Shown in pieces: positions 2,472 through 20,726 of a stretch of 21,086 nt of DNA. A model generated the notes under the pieces. That model worked only from the letters and a program-made list of their open reading frames with translations, ran no database searches and was not told the origin of the DNA. The translations under genes and the position numbers were made by a program. The stretch is from a virus: IMG/VR virus record IMGVR_UViG_3300012954_000115, positions 1-21,086 of that record. The stretch is one strand, 5' to 3'. Each line of letters starts with the position of its first letter. Within the stretch, counting starts at the first letter, position 1.

Positions 2472-3836
2472 TTATCCAGTAATATTTATAATGCCACCCA
2501 TACCACTATGATTCTTACAATAGTAGTATAGATTTGATGGCGCATCAGCGGCAATTGCGATTTCAGTCCATGCATTTGCTTGACCTGGTGTACCATTATA
2601 TGATACTCCTGTTGTGTATTCAGTTCCACTTGCGTGAGTTCCATTTGAAGTTGTAGAGATTCTAATTGGATGTGATGTGTTAGATGAATCTTCTTGCATG
2701 AATCTGTATGTCACACCTCTGACAAAATTAAATGTGTATTGTTCTGTGCCACCATAATTAAATCTATTTCCAGAACCAGAATTAGAAACTCTGATAGCAT
2801 AGTCTGTTGTATTGCCTTCACTGTATTGGTCGATGACACCATCATCAAAGAATGTGGCATCTTCTGCAACTACGAATGAATCACTTGGGTCTACTGAACC
2901 AACGAACTTCAATGTAGTATTTGCGTTGATAGTAATGTTTGAACCTAATACCATTGATAGTTTATTAGATGCAATAGATGATATTGTTGGTTCAGATGAA
3001 TTGCCTGTTCCAAAAACTTTATCACCTACACTAATCTTACTATTGATTGCAGTTGCGAATGTCACTGTAGATGAATCTGATACTGCATTTGCCACTTCAG
3101 CGAAAGCAGGTTCGTAAAACTTAACTTCTTTTACCAAACCTGATTGACTTATTTGTGTAGTTGTGAATTGATTGTTACCATCACCAATAAAGGTTCTTTC
3201 TTGAACGGCTTTAATGATATTACCTGTGTAGACAGGTCCAAAGAAGTATGTCTTCATTGTAAAGTCTAAAGTGTATTCTATAACTCTTCTATCTTCAAAT
3301 GAACCTTCGTAATCATCACTGAATGATACACTGTTTAATACAATTGGAACATCTCTGTTGTCTGGCATGTTATCAACCATTTTCATTGTGACTGTATACT
3401 CTGGTTGAAAGTATGGTAATATCTGTTCAACTATCTGCAATGCATCGTTCATATTCTTTGTTAGAATAGACAATGTAAAATTCAAATTGTAAGGTGCAGG
3501 TGCGTATTGAAAACCTCTCTTGCCATCTGATTCAGCAGTATTCTTTATTGACTTGATTAATTTGTTTTGTTGTCTTGCGACATCATATTCAAAACCTGTA
3601 AGTTCAAATGCCATACGAGGCAATGATATCGCACTTCTATTACCATCTGATAGATTTGGTTCTTCTGCAAGTCTATCTAAAAACTTTTGTTTTGGTCCAT
3701 AAGATATAGGAACAATAGGCGATGTTAAAACAGTGCCATCTGATTTGACTTTCTTGAATTGAATATTATTGAACATGGTACCAAAAACTGATACACATCT
3801 CTTAATTGTTTCATTGTAAAAATAAGTTCCAAACAT
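2472..3836 (-). CDS. gp15: Tail sheath stabiliser/completion protein gp15 with C-terminal cupredoxin-like domain
   Basis: 454 aa, against about 272 aa in T4. Residues 1-205 are typical gp15: the start MFGTYFYNETIKRCVSVFGT, a KQKFLDRL motif, and a run about residues 100-200 ending DFTMKTYFFGPV. gp15 caps the tail tube and sheath and joins them to the neck. Residues about 205-335 are a beta-rich linker. Residues about 340-454 resemble a cupredoxin fold: a strand with SHPIRIS (H389), then YYYCKNHSGMGG near the end, giving C440-x2-H443-x2-M446. That is the ligand set of a type 1 copper site. Start and stop overlap gp14 by one base (TAATG), which indicates translational coupling. The gp15 identity is secure; the copper-binding claim is inference from ligand spacing. 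Confidence 0.93.
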   Translation of the reverse strand: MFGTYFYNETIKRCVSVFGTMFNNIQFKKVKSDGTVLTSPIVPISYGPKQKFLDRLAEEPNLSDGNRSAISLPRMAFELTGFEYDVARQQNKLIKSIKNTAESDGKRGFQYAPAPYNLNFTLSILTKNMNDALQIVEQILPYFQPEYTVTMKMVDNMPDNRDVPIVLNSVSFSDDYEGSFEDRRVIEYTLDFTMKTYFFGPVYTGNIIKAVQERTFIGDGNNQFTTTQISQSGLVKEVKFYEPAFAEVANAVSDSSTVTFATAINSKISVGDKVFGTGNSSEPTISSIASNKLSMVLGSNITINANTTLKFVGSVDPSDSFVVAEDATFFDDGVIDQYSEGNTTDYAIRVSNSGSGNRFNYGGTEQYTFNFVRGVTYRFMQEDSSNTSHPIRISTTSNGTHASGTEYTTGVSYNGTPGQANAWTEIAIAADAPSNLYYYCKNHSGMGGIINITG

Positions 3837-4690
3837 TATGGTTCACCAAATGGGTTAGTTTCTGATAAGTCTAAGTAGTTGCCGTCTTGTTGTTCAAATG
3901 CCAAGTTCTGAGCAGATGCATCGTTATCAAACTTCATTCTATCATCGATAGATGCAATAGTGAATGTTGCACCTGATGTTGCACCAACTAATACATCACC
4001 AACTGCGAGAGTTGTAGTGATATCTTTTGCAAGTAGTTTATCTGTTGGGTCACTCCAAGATACAACTTCTGCGACAACTGTTCCACTCTTCGTTAGATTC
4101 TCGTTTGCAAGATAATCTGTATTGTTTCCATTGTTCATGGTCATATGCAATGCGTATGCCTGTTTGTCTTCTATCAAGTCTATATCTGCCATGCCTGTAT
4201 CGAAATCTTCTTGACTGTATTCGAACAGTTCACATCTCATTTTAAATACGAATAGTTTACCAACTTGATAGAAAGGGTCTTCATGTTCTACGAACTTGAT
4301 TTCGAACATTGAACCTGATAATGGGAAATGAATTAAATCTCCCTCGTTAGGTCTAAATGATGTTGCAAGGTTTGAATCTAATGATATGAATCTTTCCCAA
4401 CTTCTAAGAGATATAATAAATGTTGCTTGGTCTCTAACTTGAATACCAAACTTAGACATTAAATCGCCTTCACCTTCGAAACCATCGGTGTTCTCGATAT
4501 ACATCTCTACTGAATACGCATCACCAAACTTAGATTGAACATCTTCGTTGAGTATAGTATCTTCTTCTACTATCTCTCTAGGTAGATAAAAACATTCGTG
4601 TCCGTAAATCCTTAAAGACTCAACTACTAAATCTTCGTATAGTTGTTGTTCTGTTTGGACTGCGTGGTTGAAAAAAACATTTGTTGGCAT
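3836..4690 (-). CDS. gp14: Neck protein gp14
   Basis: 284 aa, close to T4 gp14 (256 aa). The N-terminus has MPTNVFFNHAVQTEQQLYED, then LRIYGHECFYLPREIV and FGDAYSVEMYIENTDGFEGE, followed by RDQATFIISLRSWERF. These are the conserved landmarks of gp14-type neck proteins. With gp13 it forms the collar that closes the filled head and receives the tail. The C-terminal stretch about residues 200-270 (LAVGDVLVGATSGATFTI) is a small beta-rich insertion resembling one in gp15. The gene lies 4 bases after gp13, with TAGGAT as ribosome site, and overlaps gp15 by one base. Confidence 0.92.
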   Translation of the reverse strand: MPTNVFFNHAVQTEQQLYEDLVVESLRIYGHECFYLPREIVEEDTILNEDVQSKFGDAYSVEMYIENTDGFEGEGDLMSKFGIQVRDQATFIISLRSWERFISLDSNLATSFRPNEGDLIHFPLSGSMFEIKFVEHEDPFYQVGKLFVFKMRCELFEYSQEDFDTGMADIDLIEDKQAYALHMTMNNGNNTDYLANENLTKSGTVVAEVVSWSDPTDKLLAKDITTTLAVGDVLVGATSGATFTIASIDDRMKFDNDASAQNLAFEQQDGNYLDLSETNPFGEP

Positions 4691-4694
4691 ATCA

Positions 4695-5510
4695 TTATCC
4701 TATCATGTCCATAGGTAACATGTCATGATTAAGTCTTGCTTCCTCTTCGAGTCTTTGTATTTCTTCTTGAGCCTCTTGTTTTATCTGCTGACCATCTAGT
4801 GTCACACCACCTGGTAATGCGATACCTTGGAACTTAGATAAGTTTTCACCCCACTGATATTTTACTTTAGCGGTTGCATATTTCTTTAACCACATATCAT
4901 TGTAGATATCTGTAAAGTCATTGGGGTCTAATTTTCTATAACATTCTATAATTAAAAATTCGTTTGCATTAATCGAATCTGCATCCATATCAATATACAA
5001 TCTATTCTGATGTTGATTATATCTGATTGGTTGTCGACCAACTAAAATGTTATCTAATAATCTGATATGTTGTTGCACTTGTTCGTAATACAATACATTA
5101 GTTGCAGTTAAATCGTATAAGTCATTAAGTCTTAACTGATATCTTAGGTCAAACATATTCAGATTATGTTTATCATTAAAAGGAAATATGTTCATGACAG
5201 CCATAACAAAGTCTGGTAAGACTATGTAATTCTGTTGTTGTTTAAACTGTTCATCTGTATACGCATGAGTTCCAGCAGAACTTTCTGTAAAACTTTCGTC
5301 TGTTTTTAGATTCGTAATTTTTGAGTCGGTCATTTGATGTTTTAGATACATCTTAATAGAACCATCATAATGATATTGATGAAAATACTGCAATGCCTCA
5401 TCTATTCTATCATCCATCTGGTCATCATCGACATTGATTTCTAGAACAGGTGCACCAAGAGCCCTTTTGATATACTCTTTGAATGTTGCTTTTGAATTTG
5501 GGGTTGCCAT
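4695..5510 (-). CDS. gp13: Neck protein gp13
   Basis: 271 aa (T4 gp13 is 309 aa). The conserved opening is SKATFKEYIKRALGAPVLEI followed by NVDDDQMDDRIDEALQYFHQ. Further on are MFDLRYQLRLNDLYDL, an RPIRYN-type strand and FLIIECYRKLDPNDF with a WLKKYATAKVKYQWG segment. This is the head-completion or connector protein that binds the portal and recruits gp14. The start at 5510 has AGGA 11 bases upstream and a late-type promoter at 5533-5540, giving a leader of about 17 nt. The gene opens the gp13-14-15-16-17 cluster, whose members are separated by 0 to 6 bases. Confidence 0.94.
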   Translation of the reverse strand: MATPNSKATFKEYIKRALGAPVLEINVDDDQMDDRIDEALQYFHQYHYDGSIKMYLKHQMTDSKITNLKTDESFTESSAGTHAYTDEQFKQQQNYIVLPDFVMAVMNIFPFNDKHNLNMFDLRYQLRLNDLYDLTATNVLYYEQVQQHIRLLDNILVGRQPIRYNQHQNRLYIDMDADSINANEFLIIECYRKLDPNDFTDIYNDMWLKKYATAKVKYQWGENLSKFQGIALPGGVTLDGQQIKQEAQEEIQRLEEEARLNHDMLPMDMIG

Positions 5511-5813: not shown

Positions 5814-5821
5814 TATTTATG
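5814..5821 (-). promoter_or_regulatory. Late-type promoter abutting the 86-aa gene start
   Basis: CATAAATA on the minus strand. It overlaps the stop codon (5817-5819) of the upstream oxygenase gene. Initiation about 6 nt downstream falls at about 5808, next to the ATG at 5807, which predicts an mRNA with almost no leader. Confidence 0.5.
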
Positions 5822-6524
5822 AAATAACTTTGCCGGACTCGTCTGTTTCGTAGAGAAAATCTACATTCTCTTCGATTAATTGTTGTTCTGGTTTTATTCT
5901 TAAACCACTATGGGTGTCATTGACTTCGCAATTGAAAGATATACTGTATCTTTCTTTGTCTGTTTTATTTGGTTCTACCATATGCATCAAACCACTAGGG
6001 AAAACATACAAGTCTCCTGTTCTAGGATAATGAACAATCGACTCTCTCATTCTAGGCACTGAAGGCATATTACCAACTACTTTAGGATGAGTGTCTATAA
6101 ATCTAATTCCACCTTCATCTCCGTCAGCACGAATATACATTACACCAGAATAATAACAACCGTTATGTAAATGTGGTGCGTTCCAACCATGTTTGTAGTT
6201 TACATTTGCCCATGAGTTATGCATTATACATTCAGAAGTTCCTGGTTCTGCACCCATGTAATGCATAAGTTCACGACCAACAACTCTTTTAATTTCTCTC
6301 ATTGCTTTAGTAAATATAGGACTTGTATCAATACCATCATTTGATTGCCAACCATTACCTGCATTTGAGCGTTTTCTTCCTTGTGGGTCTCTCATTCTCA
6401 TTGCATCGATTTCATTTCTAAGCATATCAAAATATTCAGGAGTCATTCCTGGTGCAAAATCTTCTTCTTTGTGTAAATAAGATTTCTCAACTGTTACCGT
6501 TGGAAATAATAATCTAATCGCCAT
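5817..6524 (-). CDS. 2OG-Fe(II) oxygenase (TIGR02466/2OG-FeII_Oxy_5-like)
   Basis: 235 aa. The core reads NAPHLHNGCYYSGVMYI (H118 and H120), then RFIDTHP, GDLYVFPSGLMHMVEP (H181) and ERYSISFN (R192). This follows the family pattern of a double-stranded beta-helix with metal ligands H-x-[HD]...H and an Arg that binds 2-oxoglutarate. Here the second ligand position is His rather than the usual Asp, as seen in this subfamily. Such enzymes hydroxylate proteins or small molecules using Fe(II), O2 and 2-oxoglutarate; the substrate is unknown. The gene overlaps the upstream DUF6065-like gene by 11 bases and has a GGGGAG ribosome site, so it is translationally coupled to it. Confidence 0.9.
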   Translation of the reverse strand: MAIRLLFPTVTVEKSYLHKEEDFAPGMTPEYFDMLRNEIDAMRMRDPQGRKRSNAGNGWQSNDGIDTSPIFTKAMREIKRVVGRELMHYMGAEPGTSECIMHNSWANVNYKHGWNAPHLHNGCYYSGVMYIRADGDEGGIRFIDTHPKVVGNMPSVPRMRESIVHYPRTGDLYVFPSGLMHMVEPNKTDKERYSISFNCEVNDTHSGLRIKPEQQLIEENVDFLYETDESGKVIS

Positions 6525-7389
6525 CGTGATTTAACTCCCCATGCATTGGACATTCTGGTGGTGGTTCTCCTTCTGAATAGAACTGACCCTTTTCTTTCCA
6601 ATATCCTTCGTTTCTATAAGGACCTAAAGACATTGGTTTATCTTTTTGTTTCTTTGCACCCGATATTGCAACATCATACTTAGTTCTGCCTTGTTCATCC
6701 ATTGTCATCATATCATGATTAGATGTATGCATACTTCTGTTTTCATGCCATATCTTGTTGTCTTTTAATTGATATGTTGCAACCCACTCTTCTCTTTTGA
6801 ATGGTATGATTTGACAAAGTGGTGTTCCTTTTGGTATAGTAAATGAGTGATTTACTTTAGGATAGAATATAATTTGTGAATTGTCTTGGTTGACATTGAA
6901 CTCATCTGTATCTATAATACCTTGCCAACATGCAAAGTATTTGTTTTGAAATAAAAATGGGTCCATATAATATGTTGAATAACCTTTTGGTGTTTGTATG
7001 TTCCAAGGATTTCTCATTTTAAATGCATCTTTAACTTGACCAAACTCACCGTCTTCTATGTAATCAAAAGCATTATCGAATTGGTCACTTGGATGTGTTG
7101 GTGATGAATAACCTTTACCACTTGGGTCTTTTGTTGCAAACTTAGTTGAAGTTAAATCTCTTTCAGAACCACACAATATTTCCATATCTCTGTTTGCAAG
7201 TAGATACCAACCTGATTTTGTCCAATCATGCATTGCTGGGCAAGCACGAATAGTTTGTATTCTTCTGCCTCTTATAGATTGAAATATCTTCATCTTTTTC
7301 CACCAACTCGGCATAACTGACTTTGCTAAGACAGGTTTGAAATTACGAAGTGTTTCTTCGTTAAAAGTTGTAAAGTCTATCGTTGGCAT
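6514..7389 (-). CDS. DUF6065-like protein, unknown function
   Basis: 291 aa. Landmarks are VMPSWWKKM near the start, TIRACPAMHDWTKSGWYLLA (residues 46-65), a KYFACWQGIIDTDEF block (about 150-164) and HSFTIPKGTPLCQIIPFKRE (about 181-200). These resemble the DUF6065 family as I remember it; no function is established. The C-terminus has PPPECPMHG, and its Cys and His, together with C50 and H54, could bind metal, though this is unproven. The gene overlaps both flanking oxygenase genes (29 bases upstream, 11 bases downstream). The three are therefore translated together and probably act in one pathway, perhaps as substrate-binding partner or third enzyme. Confidence 0.72.
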   Translation of the reverse strand: MPTIDFTTFNEETLRNFKPVLAKSVMPSWWKKMKIFQSIRGRRIQTIRACPAMHDWTKSGWYLLANRDMEILCGSERDLTSTKFATKDPSGKGYSSPTHPSDQFDNAFDYIEDGEFGQVKDAFKMRNPWNIQTPKGYSTYYMDPFLFQNKYFACWQGIIDTDEFNVNQDNSQIIFYPKVNHSFTIPKGTPLCQIIPFKREEWVATYQLKDNKIWHENRSMHTSNHDMMTMDEQGRTKYDVAISGAKKQKDKPMSLGPYRNEGYWKEKGQFYSEGEPPPECPMHGELNHDGD

Positions 7390-8092
7390 TAAAAAATTCT
7401 TCGTTATCTACTAGTTCTATTTCGTCACCCCTTAAAACTATAGAACATCTATCGGCATATCTTGCCCTTTCATTTGGTGCATCTGCACCATGAGGTATTC
7501 TTCCATCAAACATAACAAGACGATTCGGAACAAACTCTATACTTCCGATTTGATGATTCTTAATATGTTCATCTCTTCCTATAAGACCATTTTGCATTTC
7601 ATCATACAATCTTAAATCGCCACCCCATGCAGGATTCCAGAATGTATTATAGTAATACAAAAATGATAAATTCCATTCGTCATGTGGAGCACAATCAGCA
7701 TGAGTTGTTCCATGTTGACCCATTGTTTGAGAGTTCATACCCATATACTGAAATCTTTTCCATTTGAATCCAAAGTCTTTTTGAATTCTTCTATTAAAAT
7801 ACTTACCAGGTATTACAGTAAAGTTATCCATCTCATTTCCTGATATCAAACTTCCGTCTTTTCTTTGACCACTGAAATAAGCTGCACCCCAAAAGTCATG
7901 ATGAGGTAAACCTGTTTTACTTGCTCCTCTAACTCTATTTGTTTTAGACCAGATACTAGCATTTCTTATACTCTGTTCTAACCAATGATGTAAAGAAGTT
8001 TCTAAGTAATTGTCTATCACATAGACTTTATTACCTAATGGAAAGTCTTTAATTGCGAATGGAGTTTCAGTATAAACTACATCAAGTGACAT
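7361..8092 (-). CDS. 2OG-Fe(II) oxygenase, prolyl 4-hydroxylase-like
   Basis: 243 aa. The motif order is HGTTHADCAPHDEWNLSFLY with H131-x-D133, WGGDLRLYD, then VMFDGRIPHGADAP with H201, and RYADRCSIVL with R215 as the likely 2-oxoglutarate ligand. This is the complete facial triad of the P4H-type 2OG-Fe(II) family. Many marine T4-like phages carry such genes beside tail-fibre genes; substrates are mostly unknown. The preceding 185-codon gene ends 3 bases before this start. The 3' end overlaps the DUF6065-like gene by 29 bases. Protein prolyl hydroxylation is one possible activity, attractive here because proline-rich repeat proteins are encoded just upstream. Confidence 0.9.
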   Translation of the reverse strand: MSLDVVYTETPFAIKDFPLGNKVYVIDNYLETSLHHWLEQSIRNASIWSKTNRVRGASKTGLPHHDFWGAAYFSGQRKDGSLISGNEMDNFTVIPGKYFNRRIQKDFGFKWKRFQYMGMNSQTMGQHGTTHADCAPHDEWNLSFLYYYNTFWNPAWGGDLRLYDEMQNGLIGRDEHIKNHQIGSIEFVPNRLVMFDGRIPHGADAPNERARYADRCSIVLRGDEIELVDNEEFFNANDRLYNF

Positions 8093-8664: not shown

Positions 8665-10182
8665 TTATTTCATGTGTTTTGACAACAACCTTTCGTAAAT
8701 ATTTAGTTGTCCTATTTCAGAGGTATCCATATCTTCAATCCATGGACCGCCTCTTGTATAATGATATGCACTTGGTCGCCAATTAGTTTCTTCGGTATCA
8801 TGTCCTTCTGTAAAGACATACCAATCTGGTATCTGAGATATCTTATCAGTCCATTCAAATTGATGTAGATACTTTCCTGATTCTGTATTAATTACTTCTG
8901 GTGTAAGTTTTCTACAATCTTCGTGACCATTATTGAATATCATCAACGAAGACCAAAGTTTCTTCGGATAAGAAACATTCTTTTCACCTGTAAATTTAGT
9001 ATCTGCATACTTATCAAAATCATATTGTATACATGCAACTGCATCATCAAGATTTAACATATTGAACATAGGCAATATAGATTCCGTGAATAGTATATCG
9101 TCATCTAAGAATATACTAAATCCTTCGTAGTTTTCTAAGTAAGGTATTAAGAATCTACTATATGTAAACTCTGTTGATTGATTTGCATAATCTCTAGTAT
9201 ATTCTGGTATCTTAGATATATCTAAGAACTTAATCTCAGGTACCCAACTATTCATTTCATTATATGTAGGACCAGAACCTGCACCAAATTTACATGCATG
9301 TTCTATTGCCTTTTTGCTAAGTTCTGCAAGATTACTATGTCTAGAATCATAACCAATATAGATATTCAATCTTTTGCCTTTGCACATTTGACTGACTCGT
9401 TTGTTGAAATCATAAACTTCATTTCTGAATTTCATATTCATTATATCTGTATGAATTTCTAAGTAACCATGTGTGTAAGTAAAAGACATACTCTTATGCA
9501 TATCTTCTTTTAGATTATCATTTACCCACTCTATGACATCATCAATTGTTATTTCTGAAACAGGTATCGCATCATACTTATCCCATATCCACATATCTAG
9601 ATTTGGGTCGTCTAATGTTTCGAATACACCAGAACGAACTGAACCTGGATGAATCTCTAATCTAAAAGTATCATCACTTGTTTTGATGACATTACCTTGA
9701 ATAGGATTTCTTAAACCTTCTTCTCTTATGTTCTGAGTCAACCAATGTGCTTTTGCACCATGATAATAACAAGAATCAGCCATACCTTTATCAGCACCTT
9801 CTTCTAGAAAACTTGTAATATCTACATACTCGTCATCAAGATTCATCATATCCATACCAGAGTGTCCAGGTTTAGGTGTTTCTGGTTTCTGAGTATAACC
9901 GTAAGGTAAGAAGTAATGATATGCGTATGAAAGTGATTGTAGTTTATTCCAACCTGTAAATTTTTTCTGTTTGATTAAATTTACTATATCACCCCATGTA
10001 ACCTTTTTGAGTTTACCTGTGTGATTCTCCATAACCCATTTGACTGACTTATAGGTTTCAGACTCTTGATAGTCTTCATTAACATTGATTGAACCGAGAT
10101 TGCAAAAGAAGAACTTTTCTTTTGTATCTTCTGATTGAAAAATTTCTTTAGTATGCTCTAAAGATTCTGATTTTACCGTCAT
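8665..10182 (-). CDS. Glycosyltransferase (GT8-like) with N-terminal extension that may be ParB-like
   Basis: 505 aa. Residues about 272-485 look like a GT-A fold transferase. They include LNIYIGYDSRHSNLAELSKK, FTYSRFLIPYL, FSIFLDDDILF with a DDD metal/nucleotide-sugar motif at 360-362, LHQFEWTD, and HYTRGGPW at 474-481. This set matches sugar transferases found in LPS clusters and phages. Residues about 140-205 carry HWLTQNIREEGLRNPI and, later, IHPGSVRSGVF (H178 to R183). The spacing resembles ParB/sulfiredoxin-like domains (a GL..PI strand, then a G-x-R loop). That second call is tentative. Residues 1-135 are unassigned. A late-type promoter at 10210-10217 and a TAGGAA ribosome site precede the gene. 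The acceptor could be a phage fibre or a host glycan. Confidence 0.85.
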   Translation of the reverse strand: MTVKSESLEHTKEIFQSEDTKEKFFFCNLGSINVNEDYQESETYKSVKWVMENHTGKLKKVTWGDIVNLIKQKKFTGWNKLQSLSYAYHYFLPYGYTQKPETPKPGHSGMDMMNLDDEYVDITSFLEEGADKGMADSCYYHGAKAHWLTQNIREEGLRNPIQGNVIKTSDDTFRLEIHPGSVRSGVFETLDDPNLDMWIWDKYDAIPVSEITIDDVIEWVNDNLKEDMHKSMSFTYTHGYLEIHTDIMNMKFRNEVYDFNKRVSQMCKGKRLNIYIGYDSRHSNLAELSKKAIEHACKFGAGSGPTYNEMNSWVPEIKFLDISKIPEYTRDYANQSTEFTYSRFLIPYLENYEGFSIFLDDDILFTESILPMFNMLNLDDAVACIQYDFDKYADTKFTGEKNVSYPKKLWSSLMIFNNGHEDCRKLTPEVINTESGKYLHQFEWTDKISQIPDWYVFTEGHDTEETNWRPSAYHYTRGGPWIEDMDTSEIGQLNIYERLLSKHMK

Positions 10183-10209: not shown

Positions 10210-10217
10210 TATTTATG
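10210..10217 (-). promoter_or_regulatory. Late-type promoter for the glycosyltransferase/oxygenase run
   Basis: CATAAATA on the minus strand. It overlaps the TAA stop (10213-10215) of the upstream repeat gene. Predicted initiation near 10204 leaves a leader of about 21 nt with a TAGGAA ribosome site before ATG 10182. Confidence 0.6.
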
Positions 10218-11271
10218 ATGTAATAGGAGTACCAGGCCACTGATTTCCAGGCACACCATCCCAACGGATAACTGGTGTTTGCCCTTGTCTTGCATAAGTG
10301 AATGGCGACCTGTGGTCATAAGTTGTCGGTGTTTGCCCTTGTCTTGCATATGTAGAAGGACTTCTGTGTTGATATGTGAAAGGTGTTTGACCTTGTCTTG
10401 CATATGTAGAAGGACTTCTATGGTCATATGTAAATGGTGTCTGACTATTTACAGGGTCCCTATATGTAAATGGACTTCTGTGATTGTATGTAAACGGCGA
10501 CCTATGGTCATATGTAAACGGTGACCTATGTTGATAAGTAAACGGTGTTTGATTATCTCTAATGTTAGGTTCTTGTGCGTTTACAGGATGCTGATAGTTC
10601 GCTGTTGTTTGTCTGTTTCTAATATTAGGTTCTTGCTGGTCTCTGATATTAGGTTCTTGTGCATTTGCAATATATGGTTGTTGACCATTTCTAATAAACG
10701 GATTCTGAGCATTTGCAATATAAGGTGATTGTCTGTTTCTAATATTAGGTTCTTGAAATGAGTTTTGACCATCTCTGATATTAGGTTCTTGTGCGCTTCT
10801 TATATTTGGTTCTTGATTGTTTCTAATATTAGGTTGTTGTGCTGACCTAATGTTTGGTTCTTGAGCAGATGCTGGATGTCTATATGTAAACGGACTTCTA
10901 TGTTGATAAGTAAATGGATTTCTATAACTTACAGGGTTTCTATATCCAGCAGGTTGTCTTGCATCTCTAATATTAGGTTGTTGTCCATTTACAGGTAATC
11001 TATATCCTGCTGGTTGTTGTGCTGACCTAATGTTTGGTTCTTGAGCAGAAACAGGATTTCTATATCCTCTAGGTGACCTAGCATTTCTAATATTTGGTTC
11101 TTGTGCTGACCTAATGTTTGGTTCTCTTCCTTGTGCAATATAAGGCGACTGATAGGTAAATGGATTCTGACCAGTAAATGGTTGTCTTCCTGATGCAATA
11201 TAAGGCGACTGATAAGTAAACGGTTGTTGAGTCGGTTGTTGGAAGTTTGTAATCGATGGTTGTCTTGGCAT
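10213..11271 (-). CDS. Proline-rich octapeptide-repeat protein, likely fibre or virion surface component
   Basis: 352 aa, almost entirely repeats. Prolines recur every 8 (sometimes 6) residues in units such as Q-E-P-N-I-R-N-A, R-S-P-F-T-Y-D-H and Q-S-P-Y-I-A-N-A. QEPNIR occurs nine times. Three tandem 18-residue units with ARQGQTP lie at residues 285-338. The composition is rich in N, Q, R, P, T and Y, has no Cys, and is basic. The N-terminus RQPSITNFQQP resembles that of the 278-aa repeat protein (RQPSIGQFQQP). It starts 3 bases after the Hint-domain gene ends, with a GAGGAGAA ribosome site inside that gene's end. I know of no assigned function; an elongated adhesin-like or collagen-like role is inference. 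Confidence 0.82.
   Translation of the reverse strand: MPRQPSITNFQQPTQQPFTYQSPYIASGRQPFTGQNPFTYQSPYIAQGREPNIRSAQEPNIRNARSPRGYRNPVSAQEPNIRSAQQPAGYRLPVNGQQPNIRDARQPAGYRNPVSYRNPFTYQHRSPFTYRHPASAQEPNIRSAQQPNIRNNQEPNIRSAQEPNIRDGQNSFQEPNIRNRQSPYIANAQNPFIRNGQQPYIANAQEPNIRDQQEPNIRNRQTTANYQHPVNAQEPNIRDNQTPFTYQHRSPFTYDHRSPFTYNHRSPFTYRDPVNSQTPFTYDHRSPSTYARQGQTPFTYQHRSPSTYARQGQTPTTYDHRSPFTYARQGQTPVIRWDGVPGNQWPGTPITS
10258..10419 (-). repeat. Three tandem 54-bp repeats (18 aa each)
   Basis: Residues 285-302, 303-320 and 321-338 of the repeat protein share the frame R-S-P-[SF]-T-Y-A-R-Q-G-Q-T-P. At DNA level the copies share blocks such as ggtgtttgcccttgtcttg. Copy number could change by slippage or recombination without shifting the frame. 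Confidence 0.8.
10831..10893 (-). repeat. 63-bp perfect direct repeat, copy in 352-aa gene
   Basis: Identical over all 63 bases to 12160-12222 in the neighbouring Hint-domain gene, with mismatches immediately outside both ends. It encodes the peptide ending at P127, in the same reading frame in both genes, so exchange between copies would keep the frame. The copies are 1329 bp apart in direct orientation. Confidence 0.92.
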
Positions 11272-11274
11272 CTG

Positions 11275-12966
11275 TTATTTCTCCTCGCCGAATAATCCGT
11301 GTTCGTTTCCACCAAAGTTATGCACTAGCATACCATTTGCGAAGAAGGTGTGATTATCTTTAATCACGGATAAGTTATGAACTTTCATTTCAGAATTTTC
11401 TTTTACTGACATTATTTCAAGTCCCATTTCGTCTGCCCTATCAAACATGATAGCATCTGTCATTGAGAATAAATTATCTCCAACTTTGAGTTCATGAGAG
11501 TTTATACCCTCCATCCAAGTGTGTTCTCTAACACATTTCTCTACATCAAAAGCACCCCACTCACCATTAGCGAGCATGATTGGGTGACTATCTGTAATCT
11601 GTAATATTCTTCCGTCTGACAACTCTACATCCCATATAGCAGATATAGGTTGTGGATTTATCTTTTCTATTGGTTGTGGTTCAAGTAGTTTAGAATCTTC
11701 GTTCCAAGTCATAACCATTTGACCAACTACGCAGTGTTCTATTGGTGCGTGACTGCCATCTGCCAACCAAATCATAGTGCCTGGTGCGAAACAACCACCA
11801 CCGCCACCACCAAAGAATGGGAACTGAACATTAGTTGATGCAGGTGTTCTAGCTGGTGTTCTTCCACTATTAGGTTCTCTTGCCTGGAATGTAAATGGAT
11901 TCTGACCAGTGAACGGTTGTCTAGCAGCGTTAGGTTGTCTTGCGTTGAATGTAAACGGAGACCTATGATTGTATGTAAATGGTGACCTATGATTGTATGT
12001 AAACGGTAACTGATAACCTACAGGATTTCTATATGTAAATGGTGACCTGTGATTATATGTAAACGGATTTCTGTATGACCTTGGGTCTCTATATGTAAAT
12101 GGTGACCTGTGATTATATGTAAATGGTATCTGATAACTTACAGGGTTTCTATATCCAGCAGGTTGTTGTGCTGACCTAATGTTTGGTTCTTGAGCAGATG
12201 CTGGATGTCTATATGTAAACGGTGACCTGTGGTCATATGTAAACGGACTTCTATGGTCATATGTTGAAGGACTTCTATGGTCATATGTCAACGGACTTCT
12301 ATGTTGATATGTAAAAGGTTGCCTACCTGGTGACCTATGGTCGTAAGTATGTGGTTCTCTATGTTGATAAGTCGATGGCGACCTATGTTGATAAGTGAAC
12401 GGTGTTCTGTTCTGATATGTTGAAGGACTTCTATGGTCATATGTCGTAGGACTTCTATGGTCATATGTAGAAGGATTCTGATATGTCCTAGGGTCTCTGT
12501 ATGTAGAAGGCGACCTATGCTGATATGTTCCTGGTTGTCTTGCATCTCTGATATTAGGTTGTTGTGCGCTTCTTATATTTGGTTCTTGACCATCTCTTAT
12601 ATTTGGTTCTTGAGCTGATACAGGATTCTGATATGTTCCTGGTTGTCTTGCATCTCTAATATTAGGTTCTTGTGCATTTGCAATATAAGGATATGGTTGT
12701 TGTGCGTTTCTAATATTAGGTTCTTGTGCATTTGCAATATAAGGATAAGGATTTTGTTTATTTCTTATATTTGGTTCTTGACCATTTGCAATGTAAGGAT
12801 ATGGTTGTTGAACAGACTCTTGACCTGAGGCATTATTCCAACCTGTTGGTGTTTTGATATAAATTTGGTCTACATCTTTCCATGTGCCTGATGCAGTCTT
12901 TACCCAAGCACCTCGGGTTGCATTCCAACCTGATGGTGTTTTTACCTTCTGTGAGCCTGTTGCCAT
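11275..12966 (-). CDS. Proline-rich repeat protein with C-terminal Hint self-processing domain
   Basis: 563 aa. Residues 1-50 contain KVKTPSGW, AWVKTASGTWKDVDQIYIK and TPTGW, a short V-K/W module seen in phage fibres. Residues about 53-371 are proline-rich octapeptide repeats (QEPNIRNA, RSPFTYDH, QQPYPYIA types). G386-G391 are six glycines. Residues 392-550 form a Hint domain: C392 in CFAPGTMIWLADG (block A), TDSHP around 459-463 (block B), and VHNLSVIKDNHTFFANGMLV ending H549-N550 (blocks F and G). F551 replaces the Cys/Ser/Thr that true inteins need, so splicing is unlikely and cleavage is more likely, as in bacterial intein-like domains. A 13-residue tail follows. A late-type promoter and an AAGGAA site precede ATG 12966. 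Confidence 0.88.
   Translation of the reverse strand: MATGSQKVKTPSGWNATRGAWVKTASGTWKDVDQIYIKTPTGWNNASGQESVQQPYPYIANGQEPNIRNKQNPYPYIANAQEPNIRNAQQPYPYIANAQEPNIRDARQPGTYQNPVSAQEPNIRDGQEPNIRSAQQPNIRDARQPGTYQHRSPSTYRDPRTYQNPSTYDHRSPTTYDHRSPSTYQNRTPFTYQHRSPSTYQHREPHTYDHRSPGRQPFTYQHRSPLTYDHRSPSTYDHRSPFTYDHRSPFTYRHPASAQEPNIRSAQQPAGYRNPVSYQIPFTYNHRSPFTYRDPRSYRNPFTYNHRSPFTYRNPVGYQLPFTYNHRSPFTYNHRSPFTFNARQPNAARQPFTGQNPFTFQAREPNSGRTPARTPASTNVQFPFFGGGGGGCFAPGTMIWLADGSHAPIEHCVVGQMVMTWNEDSKLLEPQPIEKINPQPISAIWDVELSDGRILQITDSHPIMLANGEWGAFDVEKCVREHTWMEGINSHELKVGDNLFSMTDAIMFDRADEMGLEIMSVKENSEMKVHNLSVIKDNHTFFANGMLVHNFGGNEHGLFGEEK
11854..12810 (-). repeat. Proline-rich repeat tract of the Hint-domain gene
   Basis: Covers residues 53-371. 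Many near-identical short DNA blocks recur, for example aatattaggttcttg (QEPNI) and ggacttctatggtcatatgt (TYDHRSP). The tract mixes QEPNIR-type units near the N-terminus with a long HRSP-[FS]-TY run in the middle. This makes it prone to recombination and explains the long spurious open frames in other phases. Confidence 0.85.
12160..12222 (-). repeat. 63-bp perfect direct repeat, copy in Hint-domain gene
   Basis: Identical to 10831-10893. The first codon of the repeat on the minus strand encodes P249 of the 563-aa protein, which is the same codon phase as P127 of the 352-aa protein. It lies upstream of the Hint domain, so a crossover between copies would remove that domain. Confidence 0.92.
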
Positions 12967-12984: not shown

Positions 12985-12992
12985 TATTTATT
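12985..12992 (-). promoter_or_regulatory. Late-type promoter for the Hint-domain gene
   Basis: AATAAATA on the minus strand, one base off the T4 late consensus, overlapping the TAA stop of the 745-aa fibre gene. Predicted initiation near 12979 gives a 13-nt leader that begins with the AGGAA ribosome site. Confidence 0.55.
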
Positions 12993-15228
12993 AAGAGTAA
13001 AGAATCCATAAATCTCCAACTGCGCCATCACTTGAACCTGGTGCGGATGTAGATTGATGAATATTTCTCATAACACCACCACTATTGTTAGCGTATGATG
13101 TTGTCATCTGAGCAGCCCTAAAGTTTGCTTCAGTTAATGTAAGAGCACCTGTTGATGCGCCAGTAGCAGATGTTGTTGCGACTGTAAATCTACTTGCACT
13201 ATCATCCCAACCCATGAATACATTGTCTTCGTCACCTCTTTCGATAACGATACCAGCATCATTTGAAGGTGTGCCTGTAGTTCCTGTTCCAAGTTCTATC
13301 AATGCATCTTCGATTGTTGTATTTGTTGCACTGTTGGTTACTGTTGAACCATTAACTGTTAAGTTACCTGAAAGTGTTAAGTTTGCAAACTGAACATTAC
13401 TGTTTGTTGCAACTGCCTGACCAATAGATACTGTTGAAGTTGCACCTTCACCTGAACCACTTACTGATACACCAGTTCCTGCACTTACGGCAGCAATATA
13501 GTTACCTGTTGTATCTGTTCCAAGTGCAACTGAGTTAGCGGCAATTGTTGTTGCGATTGATACATTACCTTTTGCAGTCTGCGTGACTGAACCTGTGACA
13601 TCTCCTGTCAACTCAAAGTCTGAATCTGCAACTACGAAATCTATATTACCATCTGTATCATCGTATGATACTGAGATACCTGTTTCGGTACCATCTAACA
13701 TACCACCAACTATGTCTTCTACATTCTCAGTTGATAATTGAGTGTTAGTTGTTGTGACTGAACCACCCAATGCAACTGACTGACCATCAATTGTTATTGA
13801 ACTGTTTGCAAGTTTAGCGTTTGCAATTGAACCTGCGAGTTTGTCATTTGCAATAGACCCTGCCAACATGTCATTTGTTATAGCGCCACTTCCAATCGCA
13901 AAGTCTAAAGTTCCGTCTCCGTCTTCGTAGGTTACTGCAATACCTGTTTCAGTATTACTTGATACCATGCCCCCAACAATATCTTGAACTTGTTCTGTTG
14001 TTAATTGTGTATTGTTTGTTGATATTGAACCACCAAGTGATACTGATGTGCCATCAATTGTTATTGCACTATTTGATAGTAATGAGTTTCCAATTGAACC
14101 TGCAAGTTTACTAGCAGCGATTGACCCTGCCAACATGGCATTAGTAATACCACCTGCCTTAACTTGAACTGCATCTGAGTCTAATTCGATTGAACTATCA
14201 TCTACGCCAACTGCAAGAACACCTGATGAGTATGATAAACCATTACCATCAACTGTTGATGATAATGCAATATCGTTTGCGTTTGCAGTGATACCATCAC
14301 CACCTATAACATTTAGTGTGACATCTCCTGATGTTCCACCACCTGTTAGACCAGAACCAGCGACTACACTTGTTATGTCAGCACTATTTGTATTTGCAAT
14401 AGTTAAAGAACCAGCGGCGTCATCATATGTTAATGATATGCCTGTGCCAGCAGTCAATAGTGAGTCAACTCTATCATCTACTCTTTCGTTTGTAAAGTAT
14501 AGATTTGATGAACCTTCTGAGAGGTCGTCTGTATCATTGTTTGAAAGGTTATCTTCTGTAGCAGCGATTGTCAAAGTGCCAGCGGCGTCATCATATGTTG
14601 TTGTGATGTTTGAACCTGCTGTGATTAAAGCATTAACTCTATCGTCTACTCTTTCGTTTGTGAAATATAAATTAGATGAACCTTCTGTAATTTCGTCTGT
14701 ATTATCTTTGCCTGCAACTGATGAATCTACATATGCTTTAATTGATTGTTGAGTTGCAATATGAGTATTACTATTAGATGACATATCATCTTCATCTTTG
14801 ATAGCAGTACCTGAAACTGTCCCATTTATGATTGGGGTTGTAAGTGTTTTGTTAGTTAATGTCTGAGTGCCTGCTAAAGTGGTTACTACTGATGTATCTA
14901 CTTCGATATCATCTGCATTTACTGTAATACCTGTGCCAGCACCAATGTTAAGTGTTGCATCACCTGATGTTGCAGTTCCTGTTAGACCAGCACCTGCGTT
15001 GACTCCTGTGATGTCACCTTGTTGTCCGTTGATTGTTAAAGTTCCAGCAGAATCATCATATGATAATGATACGCCAGTTCCTGCGGTTAAGAGTGTATTG
15101 ACTTGGTCATCAATTGCTTCTAGAGCAGCTGTTCCGAAAGCGGCAGCTGTTAAGTCTCCTGAACTATCTACAACCTCAGTTGTTCCAACAGTAAGACCAT
15201 TTTTGATTATAAAATTCTTACTTGTCAT
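12991..15228 (-). CDS. Large fibre-type virion structural protein
   Basis: 745 aa, low in aromatic residues and rich in T, S, G, N and D, typical of cyanophage-like tail fibres. The N-terminus (NFIIKNGLTVGTTEV) matches that of the 72-aa protein encoded just upstream. Repeats include LLTAGTGVSLSYDDSAGTLT-type units at about 46-67, 199-221 and 255-277, SSNLYFTNERVDDRV at 184-198 and 240-254, and two copies of about 85 residues at 361-445 and 451-533. Residues about 617-650 (SGNLTVNGSTVTN...) recur in the 272- and 488-aa proteins. The C-terminus SAPGSSDGAVGDLWILYS is a common fibre ending. The start overlaps the preceding stop by one base (TAATG), with a GGAGGAA ribosome site. Confidence 0.85.
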   Translation of the reverse strand: MTSKNFIIKNGLTVGTTEVVDSSGDLTAAAFGTAALEAIDDQVNTLLTAGTGVSLSYDDSAGTLTINGQQGDITGVNAGAGLTGTATSGDATLNIGAGTGITVNADDIEVDTSVVTTLAGTQTLTNKTLTTPIINGTVSGTAIKDEDDMSSNSNTHIATQQSIKAYVDSSVAGKDNTDEITEGSSNLYFTNERVDDRVNALITAGSNITTTYDDAAGTLTIAATEDNLSNNDTDDLSEGSSNLYFTNERVDDRVDSLLTAGTGISLTYDDAAGSLTIANTNSADITSVVAGSGLTGGGTSGDVTLNVIGGDGITANANDIALSSTVDGNGLSYSSGVLAVGVDDSSIELDSDAVQVKAGGITNAMLAGSIAASKLAGSIGNSLLSNSAITIDGTSVSLGGSISTNNTQLTTEQVQDIVGGMVSSNTETGIAVTYEDGDGTLDFAIGSGAITNDMLAGSIANDKLAGSIANAKLANSSITIDGQSVALGGSVTTTNTQLSTENVEDIVGGMLDGTETGISVSYDDTDGNIDFVVADSDFELTGDVTGSVTQTAKGNVSIATTIAANSVALGTDTTGNYIAAVSAGTGVSVSGSGEGATSTVSIGQAVATNSNVQFANLTLSGNLTVNGSTVTNSATNTTIEDALIELGTGTTGTPSNDAGIVIERGDEDNVFMGWDDSASRFTVATTSATGASTGALTLTEANFRAAQMTTSYANNSGGVMRNIHQSTSAPGSSDGAVGDLWILYS

Positions 15229-19889: not shown

Positions 19890-20726
19890 TTAGTTGCCGA
19901 ACTGAGCGGTTGGTACTGATTGATGAATTTGTTCGACTGTTGAACTGTCTTTTTTGACAAATGCCTTCTCTACTTTTCTTACACCTTGTGCTTCTTTGAT
20001 AAACACACCTTTGACTTTTGCAACTGGTCCTATAGGTCTTCTTGTAGAATATGTGTGTTGATATATGAAAGGACTTCTATGATTGTAAGGCACAGGTATA
20101 CGATGATTGTATGGTTGATTATTTTGTGCGTTTGCAATATAAGGTTGTTGCGTATTTGCAGTCACGGTGTAAATAAAAGGCGACCTATGATTGTATGTAA
20201 ATGGACTTCTATGATTGTATGTAAACGGACTTCTTGCATCTCTAATATTAGGTTCTTGTTTGTTTCTGATATTAGGTTCTTGTTTGTTTCTGATATTAGG
20301 TTCTTGTTGGTCTCTAACAAAAGGAGTTTGTGCATTTACAGGATGCTGATAGTTCGATGTTGTTTGTTTACTTCTAATATTAGGTTCTTGTGCGTTCACA
20401 GGATTTCTATAGAAAGCAGGTTGTTGTGCCGCCCTAATATTTGGTTCTTGTGCGCTTGCAATATAAGGCGATTGTTTGTTTCTAATATTAGGTTCTTGTG
20501 CATTTCTGATAAATGGATTTTGAGCATGTGCAATGTAAGGCGATTGTCTATCTCTGATTACAGGTTGTTGTTTATCTCTAATATTGGGTTGTTGTGCCGC
20601 CCTAATATTTGGTTCCTGAGAATTTGCAATATAAGGAGATGGTTGATTACGAATATTAGGCTGTTGGAATTGACCAATCGATGGTTGCCTGGTACTTGCT
20701 GTGACTGGTTGTTGACCTACTGACAT
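19890..20726 (-). CDS. Proline-rich octapeptide-repeat protein with C-terminal V-K module (278 aa)
   Basis: The N-terminus has TRQPSIGQFQQPNIRNQPSP, similar to the 352-aa repeat protein. Residues about 22-228 are repeats. QEPNIR occurs seven times, mixed with QSPYIANA, QQPNIRD and RSPFTYNH units. Residues 229-278 (GPVAKVKGVFIKEAQGVRKV, then EKAFVKKDSSTVEQIHQS) are a non-repeat tail. It resembles the V-K/W module at the N-terminus of the Hint-domain protein. There is no Hint domain here. The start overlaps the upstream stop by one base (TAATG), with a TAGGAAGAT ribosome site. A fibre or surface role is inferred from company and composition. Confidence 0.8.
   Translation of the reverse strand: MSVGQQPVTASTRQPSIGQFQQPNIRNQPSPYIANSQEPNIRAAQQPNIRDKQQPVIRDRQSPYIAHAQNPFIRNAQEPNIRNKQSPYIASAQEPNIRAAQQPAFYRNPVNAQEPNIRSKQTTSNYQHPVNAQTPFVRDQQEPNIRNKQEPNIRNKQEPNIRDARSPFTYNHRSPFTYNHRSPFIYTVTANTQQPYIANAQNNQPYNHRIPVPYNHRSPFIYQHTYSTRRPIGPVAKVKGVFIKEAQGVRKVEKAFVKKDSSTVEQIHQSVPTAQFGN

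Follow-up and report, generated by a model that had tools for sequence, protein, structure and literature searches.

A predicted self-removing, type-A BIL-like Hint domain at the C-terminus of a fibre-like protein from a marine T4-like phage

Background

To our knowledge, little is settled about what BIL domains do in nature, and the ones that have been studied are scattered among bacterial proteins. Type-A BILs are Hint domains without a +1 nucleophile, for which reviews describe predominant cleavage and weak splicing (PMC4031507, PMC7664689, PMC5874633). The weak ligation can proceed through a freed alpha-amine, and a BIL with Tyr at +1 spliced only once this Tyr was changed to Cys (PMC4031507). 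A second system is BIL2 of Tetrahymena BUBL1 (6Y75/6TMM), which releases a Gly-ended domain via a thioester. BIL2 joins the Gly end to a lysine by an isopeptide bond (PMC8616854).

In this study, we analyzed a stretch of 21,086 nucleotides (hereafter the window; positions 1 to 21,086 of IMG/VR virus record IMGVR_UViG_3300012954_000115), which belongs to a marine, uncultured bacteriophage of the T4-like kind and which encodes, in a tail/neck gene cluster, a fibre-like repeat protein with a Hint domain near its C-terminus. This Hint shares with type-A BILs such as C. thermocellum BIL4 (2LWY) the fold, Cys1, the terminal His-Asn, the absence of a +1 nucleophile and of an endonuclease, and the placement in a non-conserved region of the host protein; it differs in following a glycine run near the C-terminus of a phage fibre-like protein and in a +1 residue that is mostly Phe, and its activity is predicted. 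BUBL1 BIL2 is the nearest solved relative by both fold and sequence, but identity is about 20%, the N-partner of BIL2 is ubiquitin-like whereas that of the window Hint is a fibre repeat, and an isopeptide step is putative here. Class 1 mini-inteins (Npu/Ssp DnaB) have blocks A, B, F and G and the fold in common with the window Hint, which in contrast to them has no C/S/T at +1 and does not sit in a conserved enzyme active site. The Hedgehog Hog domain resembles it in fold, C-terminal position and Gly-Cys junction; unlike Hog, the window Hint has no sterol-recognition region and keeps His-Asn. By analogy, the S74-type C-terminal intramolecular chaperones of phages are also self-removed C-terminal modules of a fibre or spike (removal being predicted for the Hint), but they have a different fold, Ser-Lys chemistry and no homology to it.

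We consider it probable (roughly 0.68) that the Hint is an optional C-terminal type-A BIL-like module that cuts itself off, the Gly391 thioester being mainly cleaved, Asn550 freeing the tail and a Gly-ended fibre being left behind.

Results and discussion

Identification and classification of the Hint domain

A previous reading of the window (the earlier note) had proposed a Hint domain without a +1 nucleophile at the end of a phage repeat protein, and its residue numbers and coordinates (six glycines, C392, TDSHP, H549-N550, Phe551) proved exact on re-reading; block B is T458-D459-S460-H461-P462 and residue 551 is Phe. The profile search and the structure prediction that it had recommended both bore out the identity of the domain. 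The isolated Hint region matched Pfam Intein_splicing with E = 8.6e-7 and 29.3 bits, single-sequence scores of the window Hint (25-29 bits) lying below the curated cut-off of 35.8; the same profile was matched at E <= 0.01 in 20/20 aligned homologs, and its cut-off was passed by four of eight close relatives. The AlphaFold2 model of the Hint was confident (pLDDT 84, pTM 0.81), and Foldseek returned BIL2, inteins and the hedgehog Hint with a probability of 1.00, the best solved structure being Tetrahymena BUBL1 BIL2 (TM 0.86 over the target), with mini-inteins also near. The Hint domain of the window protein is real, well above chance.

Its features suggest classification as a type-A BIL-like domain. 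Blocks A, B, F and G of inteins are present within a Hint fold, the C-terminal His-Asn was found in 22/22 distinct homologs, there is no conserved +1 nucleophile and no homing endonuclease, and the domain sits in a variable, non-conserved region of the protein. The phage Hint profiles were also nearer to BILs than to inteins: the narrow family profile (A2) scored 49 bits with BIL2, 42 with BIL4 and up to 39 with inteins, and the broad profile (A4), built from phage Hints with the window Hint among them, scored 92, 76 and at most 44 bits, respectively. A tree of 86 Hints placed the marine family together on a supported branch, which a single long-branched archaeal intein alone joined.

Other Hint classes were considered and rejected. 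A class 1 intein would have C/S/T at +1, where Phe is found in the window and none of the three in 22 homologs, and would be inserted at a conserved position in a protein with an essential role; the window Hint instead lies in a Gly-rich tail of poor conservation, with the stop only 13 residues further on. A genuine intein that turned up in the same search, within the helicase of a Vibrio phage, does carry the expected Cys at +1. A Hog domain is contradicted by the missing sterol-recognition region and a polymorphic-toxin PT-HINT by the missing toxin domain, as only 13 residues follow the Hint. The missing +1 nucleophile, as claimed earlier, was thus confirmed; since it is the known state of type-A BILs, it is not new in itself. 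The absence of C/S/T does not in itself point to avoidance and excludes only the intein requirement.

Gene organization and probable location in the virion

The coordinates of the features are listed in Table 1.

Table 1. Coordinates of the Hint-bearing repeat protein, its parts and neighbouring genes in the window
Feature	Coordinates	Strand	Remarks
Hint-bearing repeat protein ORF	11275..12966	(-)	563 aa + stop
N-terminal domain, residues 1-48 (KVKTPSGWN..)	12823..12966	(-)	
Repeat region, residues 49-385	11812..12822	(-)	even-length units with [QR]xP; 1 Lys, 0 Cys
Hexaglycine G386-G391	11794..11811	(-)	-1 Gly kept in 22/22 distinct Hint-bearing homologs
Hint domain C392-N550	11317..11793	(-)	159 aa, without endonuclease insert
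C392	11791..11793	(-)	predicted N-S acyl shift nucleophile, invariant
H461	11584..11586	(-)	invariant His of block-B TDSH motif
H549-N550	11317..11322	(-)	predicted Asn cyclisation pair, invariant
C-terminal tail FGGNEHGLFGEEK	11278..11316	(-)	13 residues; Phe at +1
Upstream structural protein phrog_697	12991..15228	(-)	conserved neighbour
Second repeat protein	10213..11271	(-)	352 aa, 0 Lys, 0 Cys; next gene of cassette
GT8-like protein	8665..10182	(-)	conserved neighbour
T4-like neck genes	2472..5510	(-)	head-tail adaptor, head closure, tail sheath stabiliser

The repeat stretch of the window protein spans about 340 residues and runs into the six glycines. Successive [QR]xP motifs were evenly spaced (mostly by 6, 8 or 10 residues) in 2337/2341 units of 54 proteins and in 45/45 units of the window protein, and this strict two-residue register suggests an extended beta-type fibre. 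The N-domain carries five Lys in 54/54 homologs analyzed.

The cassette order phrog_697, N-domain/repeat protein, second repeat protein, GT8-like protein, a protein of about 183 aa and a 2OG-Fe(II) oxygenase was common to all 54 homologs, and within 5 kb no neighbour separated Hint-plus from Hint-minus loci. The Hint-bearing gene lies between the gene for the phrog_697 structural protein and the T4-like neck genes, and tail fibre and structural genes occupy the equivalent place in Phage C48C1, the nearest phage by terminase; judging from this gene order, the protein is likely to be present in the virion. Phage C48C1 was rejected as a relative at the Hint site itself, where it has other genes. 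The gp15-like sheath stabiliser (2472-3836, (-)) bears beyond the T4 gp15 domain a C-terminal extension (residues ~223-454) matching the tail-fibre families phrog_693 and phrog_30742. Searches of the window against Rfam gave no match.

Pro-rich repeats occur also in the products of 10213-11271 and 19890-20726 (-). Beside the Pro-rich repeat genes lie two 2OG-Fe(II) oxygenase genes (7361-8092 and 5817-6524, (-)) and the GT8-like gene, the latter and the first oxygenase gene recurring in homologous cassettes. As an idea only, the GT8-like protein and the oxygenases could glycosylate and hydroxylate the repeats.

The Hint as an optional module among relatives

A total of 301 N-domain relatives were found in IMG/VR, of which 80 were fetched; 54 distinct proteins were counted, the truncated L057 and L087 being set aside. 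By their C-termini, 21 of the 54 carry a Hint, 25 a short and mostly Gly-rich tail and 8 another domain of about 130 aa. No cultured relatives of the N-domain were found. The Hint-less relatives have a Gly-rich end and have the N-domain, the repeats and the gene cassette in common with the Hint-bearing ones, which makes the Hint a C-terminal module that is optional. Along the tree of N-domains, the Hint appears or disappears about 7 times (at least 4 on supported branches), with the truncated L057 and L087 contributing part of the total of about 7; the Hint has thus been gained, lost or swapped at the C-terminus. In L087 the ORF stops inside the repeats and repeat sequence goes on downstream, which is probably a frameshift or an assembly error. 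In L076, L079, L083, L088 and L095-L098, the other domain of about 130 aa is followed directly by an 86-95 aa gene absent from the other classes.

In summary of this distribution, an intact BIL-like clade is tied to one fibre-like gene and one homologous site, and cassettes that are otherwise identical carry alleles with the Hint, without it or with the other domain. Because such alleles exist naturally, the use of a BIL to its host protein can be tested by comparing their products.

Conservation and selection

Cys1, the block-B His, the terminal His-Asn and the Gly at -1 were invariant across 22 distinct homologs, and the +1 residue was F, G, Y, M, L or K, never C/S/T. The block-F His539 was not kept in one subclade (N/S there). 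The Hints were 152-161 aa long, and none of them contained an endonuclease. Pairwise dN/dS between Hints was about 0.15 (mostly 0.11-0.30), and no decayed copy was seen among 21 Hint-positive N-domain homologs, all of which keep Cys1 and His-Asn; these values show purifying selection on the Hint. The tails (5-29 aa) have little sequence in common while the Hints are 60-80% identical, which argues that the C-extein itself is not the thing preserved. Each contig of 89-140 kb that had any Hint had exactly one, and the possibility of several Hints per phage was therefore dismissed.

The tail lysine

Lys was present in 21/21 Hint tails and stood within the last four residues in 19/21, compared with 1/26 Hint-less homologs and 18% of the other ORFs on the same contigs. 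In the window, the last codons of the tail contain GAGGAG ahead of the ATG of the next gene, which probably doubles as its ribosome-binding site; a better ribosome-binding site follows the stop in L031, L033, L041, L043, L052, L056, L060, L065 and L068. A tree-corrected test had 4 independent Hint switches on supported branches, about 3 concordant and 0 opposite (sign test p 0.25). The association of Hint and tail Lys is hence strong in raw counts, but it becomes weak and non-significant once the tree is allowed for, and ribosome-binding sites account for part of it. Among more distant phage C-terminal Hints with short tails, +1 was Lys in 11/20 clusters; the association of short tails with the +1 residue was significant in one set (p 0.0009) but not in a wider viral one with many tandem Hints (p 0.18). 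Where bacterial and archaeal Hints (loci L187-L266) lack C/S/T at +1, Lys is the commonest residue there (VHNK), also when the C-terminal partner is long.

Proposed self-removal and alternative explanations

After folding, Cys392 would attack the Gly391-Cys392 bond and form a thioester by N-S acyl shift, which would be resolved mainly by cleavage with water or a small nucleophile, giving a repeat protein with a polyglycine carboxyl end. Cyclisation of Asn550 would separate the 13-residue tail from the Hint, and the freed Hint would be discarded. Removal would leave ..GGGGGG, the shape of the Hint-less homologs, so that the mature fibre would be like those with Gly-rich ends. We infer catalysis and the order of the steps from the conserved residues and from characterized BILs. 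The reactions listed in the earlier note find support as possibilities, but its release of the repeat fibre from a C-terminal domain needs correction: what follows the Hint is the 13-residue tail and not a folded domain, which leaves the Hint itself as the one C-terminal domain from which the fibre could be released. The conserved His-Asn suggests that C-terminal cleavage matters though the tail looks dispensable, a point left unexplained by simple N-terminal release. Hydrolysis, for its part, does not explain the near-universal tail Lys.

A rival is ligation, in which the Gly391 thioester would pass to a lysine epsilon-amine and give a covalently attached fibre without ATP, as reported for BUBL1 BIL2; the earlier note's idea of attachment to an amine thus has a precedent. 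The acceptor could be the tail Lys, an N-domain Lys on a second subunit, or else a partner or the host surface. The tail and +1 lysine counts given above speak for such transfer, as do the Gly at -1, the nearly Lys-free repeats next to an N-domain with five conserved Lys, and the fact that the nearest relative in fold and sequence, BIL2, is an isopeptide maker (PMC8616854). The tail counts, however, rest on four independent switches, the Lys codons lie inside the next gene's ribosome-binding site at some loci, Hint-less homologs have Lys-poor repeats too, the tail is disordered in the AF2 model and no acceptor was identified. Lysine transfer is accordingly a possible and serious rival, of doubtful probability, and not our conclusion. 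Its fullest form, in which the Hint would be an ATP-independent ligase passing a polyglycine thioester to Lys (tail, subunit or host surface), making virion isopeptide links by ubiquitin-like chemistry with a C-terminal Lys in place of the intein +1 nucleophile, seems to us rather unlikely. Ligation of another kind would be weak splicing, with the Phe551 amine attacking the thioester after both cleavages and the 13-residue tail being joined to the glycines. This mechanism has been proposed for type-A BILs (PMC4031507), for which reason the earlier statement that splicing should fail, right as to the missing C/S/T at +1, was slightly too strong. Such splicing would restore a Hint-less-like protein, a Gly run plus short tail being the exact Hint-less architecture, and would fit the conserved Asn550; but BILs mostly cleave, the BIL with Tyr at +1 needed Cys to splice (PMC4031507) and the tail sequences are not conserved, and we hold this outcome to be quite improbable.

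The remaining alternatives concern the purpose of the domain. As an S74-type-like chaperone, the Hint could aid fibre folding or trimerisation and, as a sensor of folding, cleave itself off. Phage tailspikes offer examples of C-terminal chaperones that are auto-cleaved (PMC3742443), a different C-domain of about 130 aa stands at the same place in other homologs, and fusions of a Gly run and a Hint recur on unrelated phage tail proteins; on the other hand, many homologs have neither the Hint nor the other C-domain, and the Hint model showed no element for trimerisation. An assembly aid, unlikely in our estimate, would be compatible with self-removal rather than exclusive of it. A selfish or decaying mini-intein of no benefit to the phage would account for patchy presence and the lack of a partner gene, yet the absence of any endonuclease or degenerate copy, the low dN/dS, the invariant C1 and H-N and the lack of a +1 nucleophile across a whole diverged clade all argue against it; a decaying parasite is unlikely on these sequence grounds, and the reading as a whole has very little probability. 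Self-removal remains the preferred reading.

Wider occurrence of phage Hint domains

Fusions of a Gly run, a Hint and a short basic tail were found on unrelated phage tail proteins (L144-L149, L162/L164), L144 matching the tail protein phrog_2048 and L162/L164 having tail fibre matches. BFVD also lists an uncultured phage protein with collagen repeats that has a Hint-like match. Hint-containing phage proteins are present in databases by annotation, and searches of the open-access literature yielded no account of a Hint domain on a phage fibre. The window case seems to represent a single clade within a broader class that has been little described, and the Gly-run/Hint/Lys-tail fusions suggest a wider, little-described processing of virion proteins.

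Some members depart from this architecture. L150 has NPG repeats with a Hint ending ..LVG and no His-Asn; in L150 (residue 739) and L338, C-terminal phage Hints end in ..GVLV plus one residue, and without His-Asn they would be capable of N-terminal cleavage at most. Tandem Hints were seen in the viral loci L157, L158 and L160. In L157, RA/KA spacers separate three Hints in a row, the last of which is followed by a single Lys, and L195, from a Thermoplasmata archaeon, has about nine in tandem.
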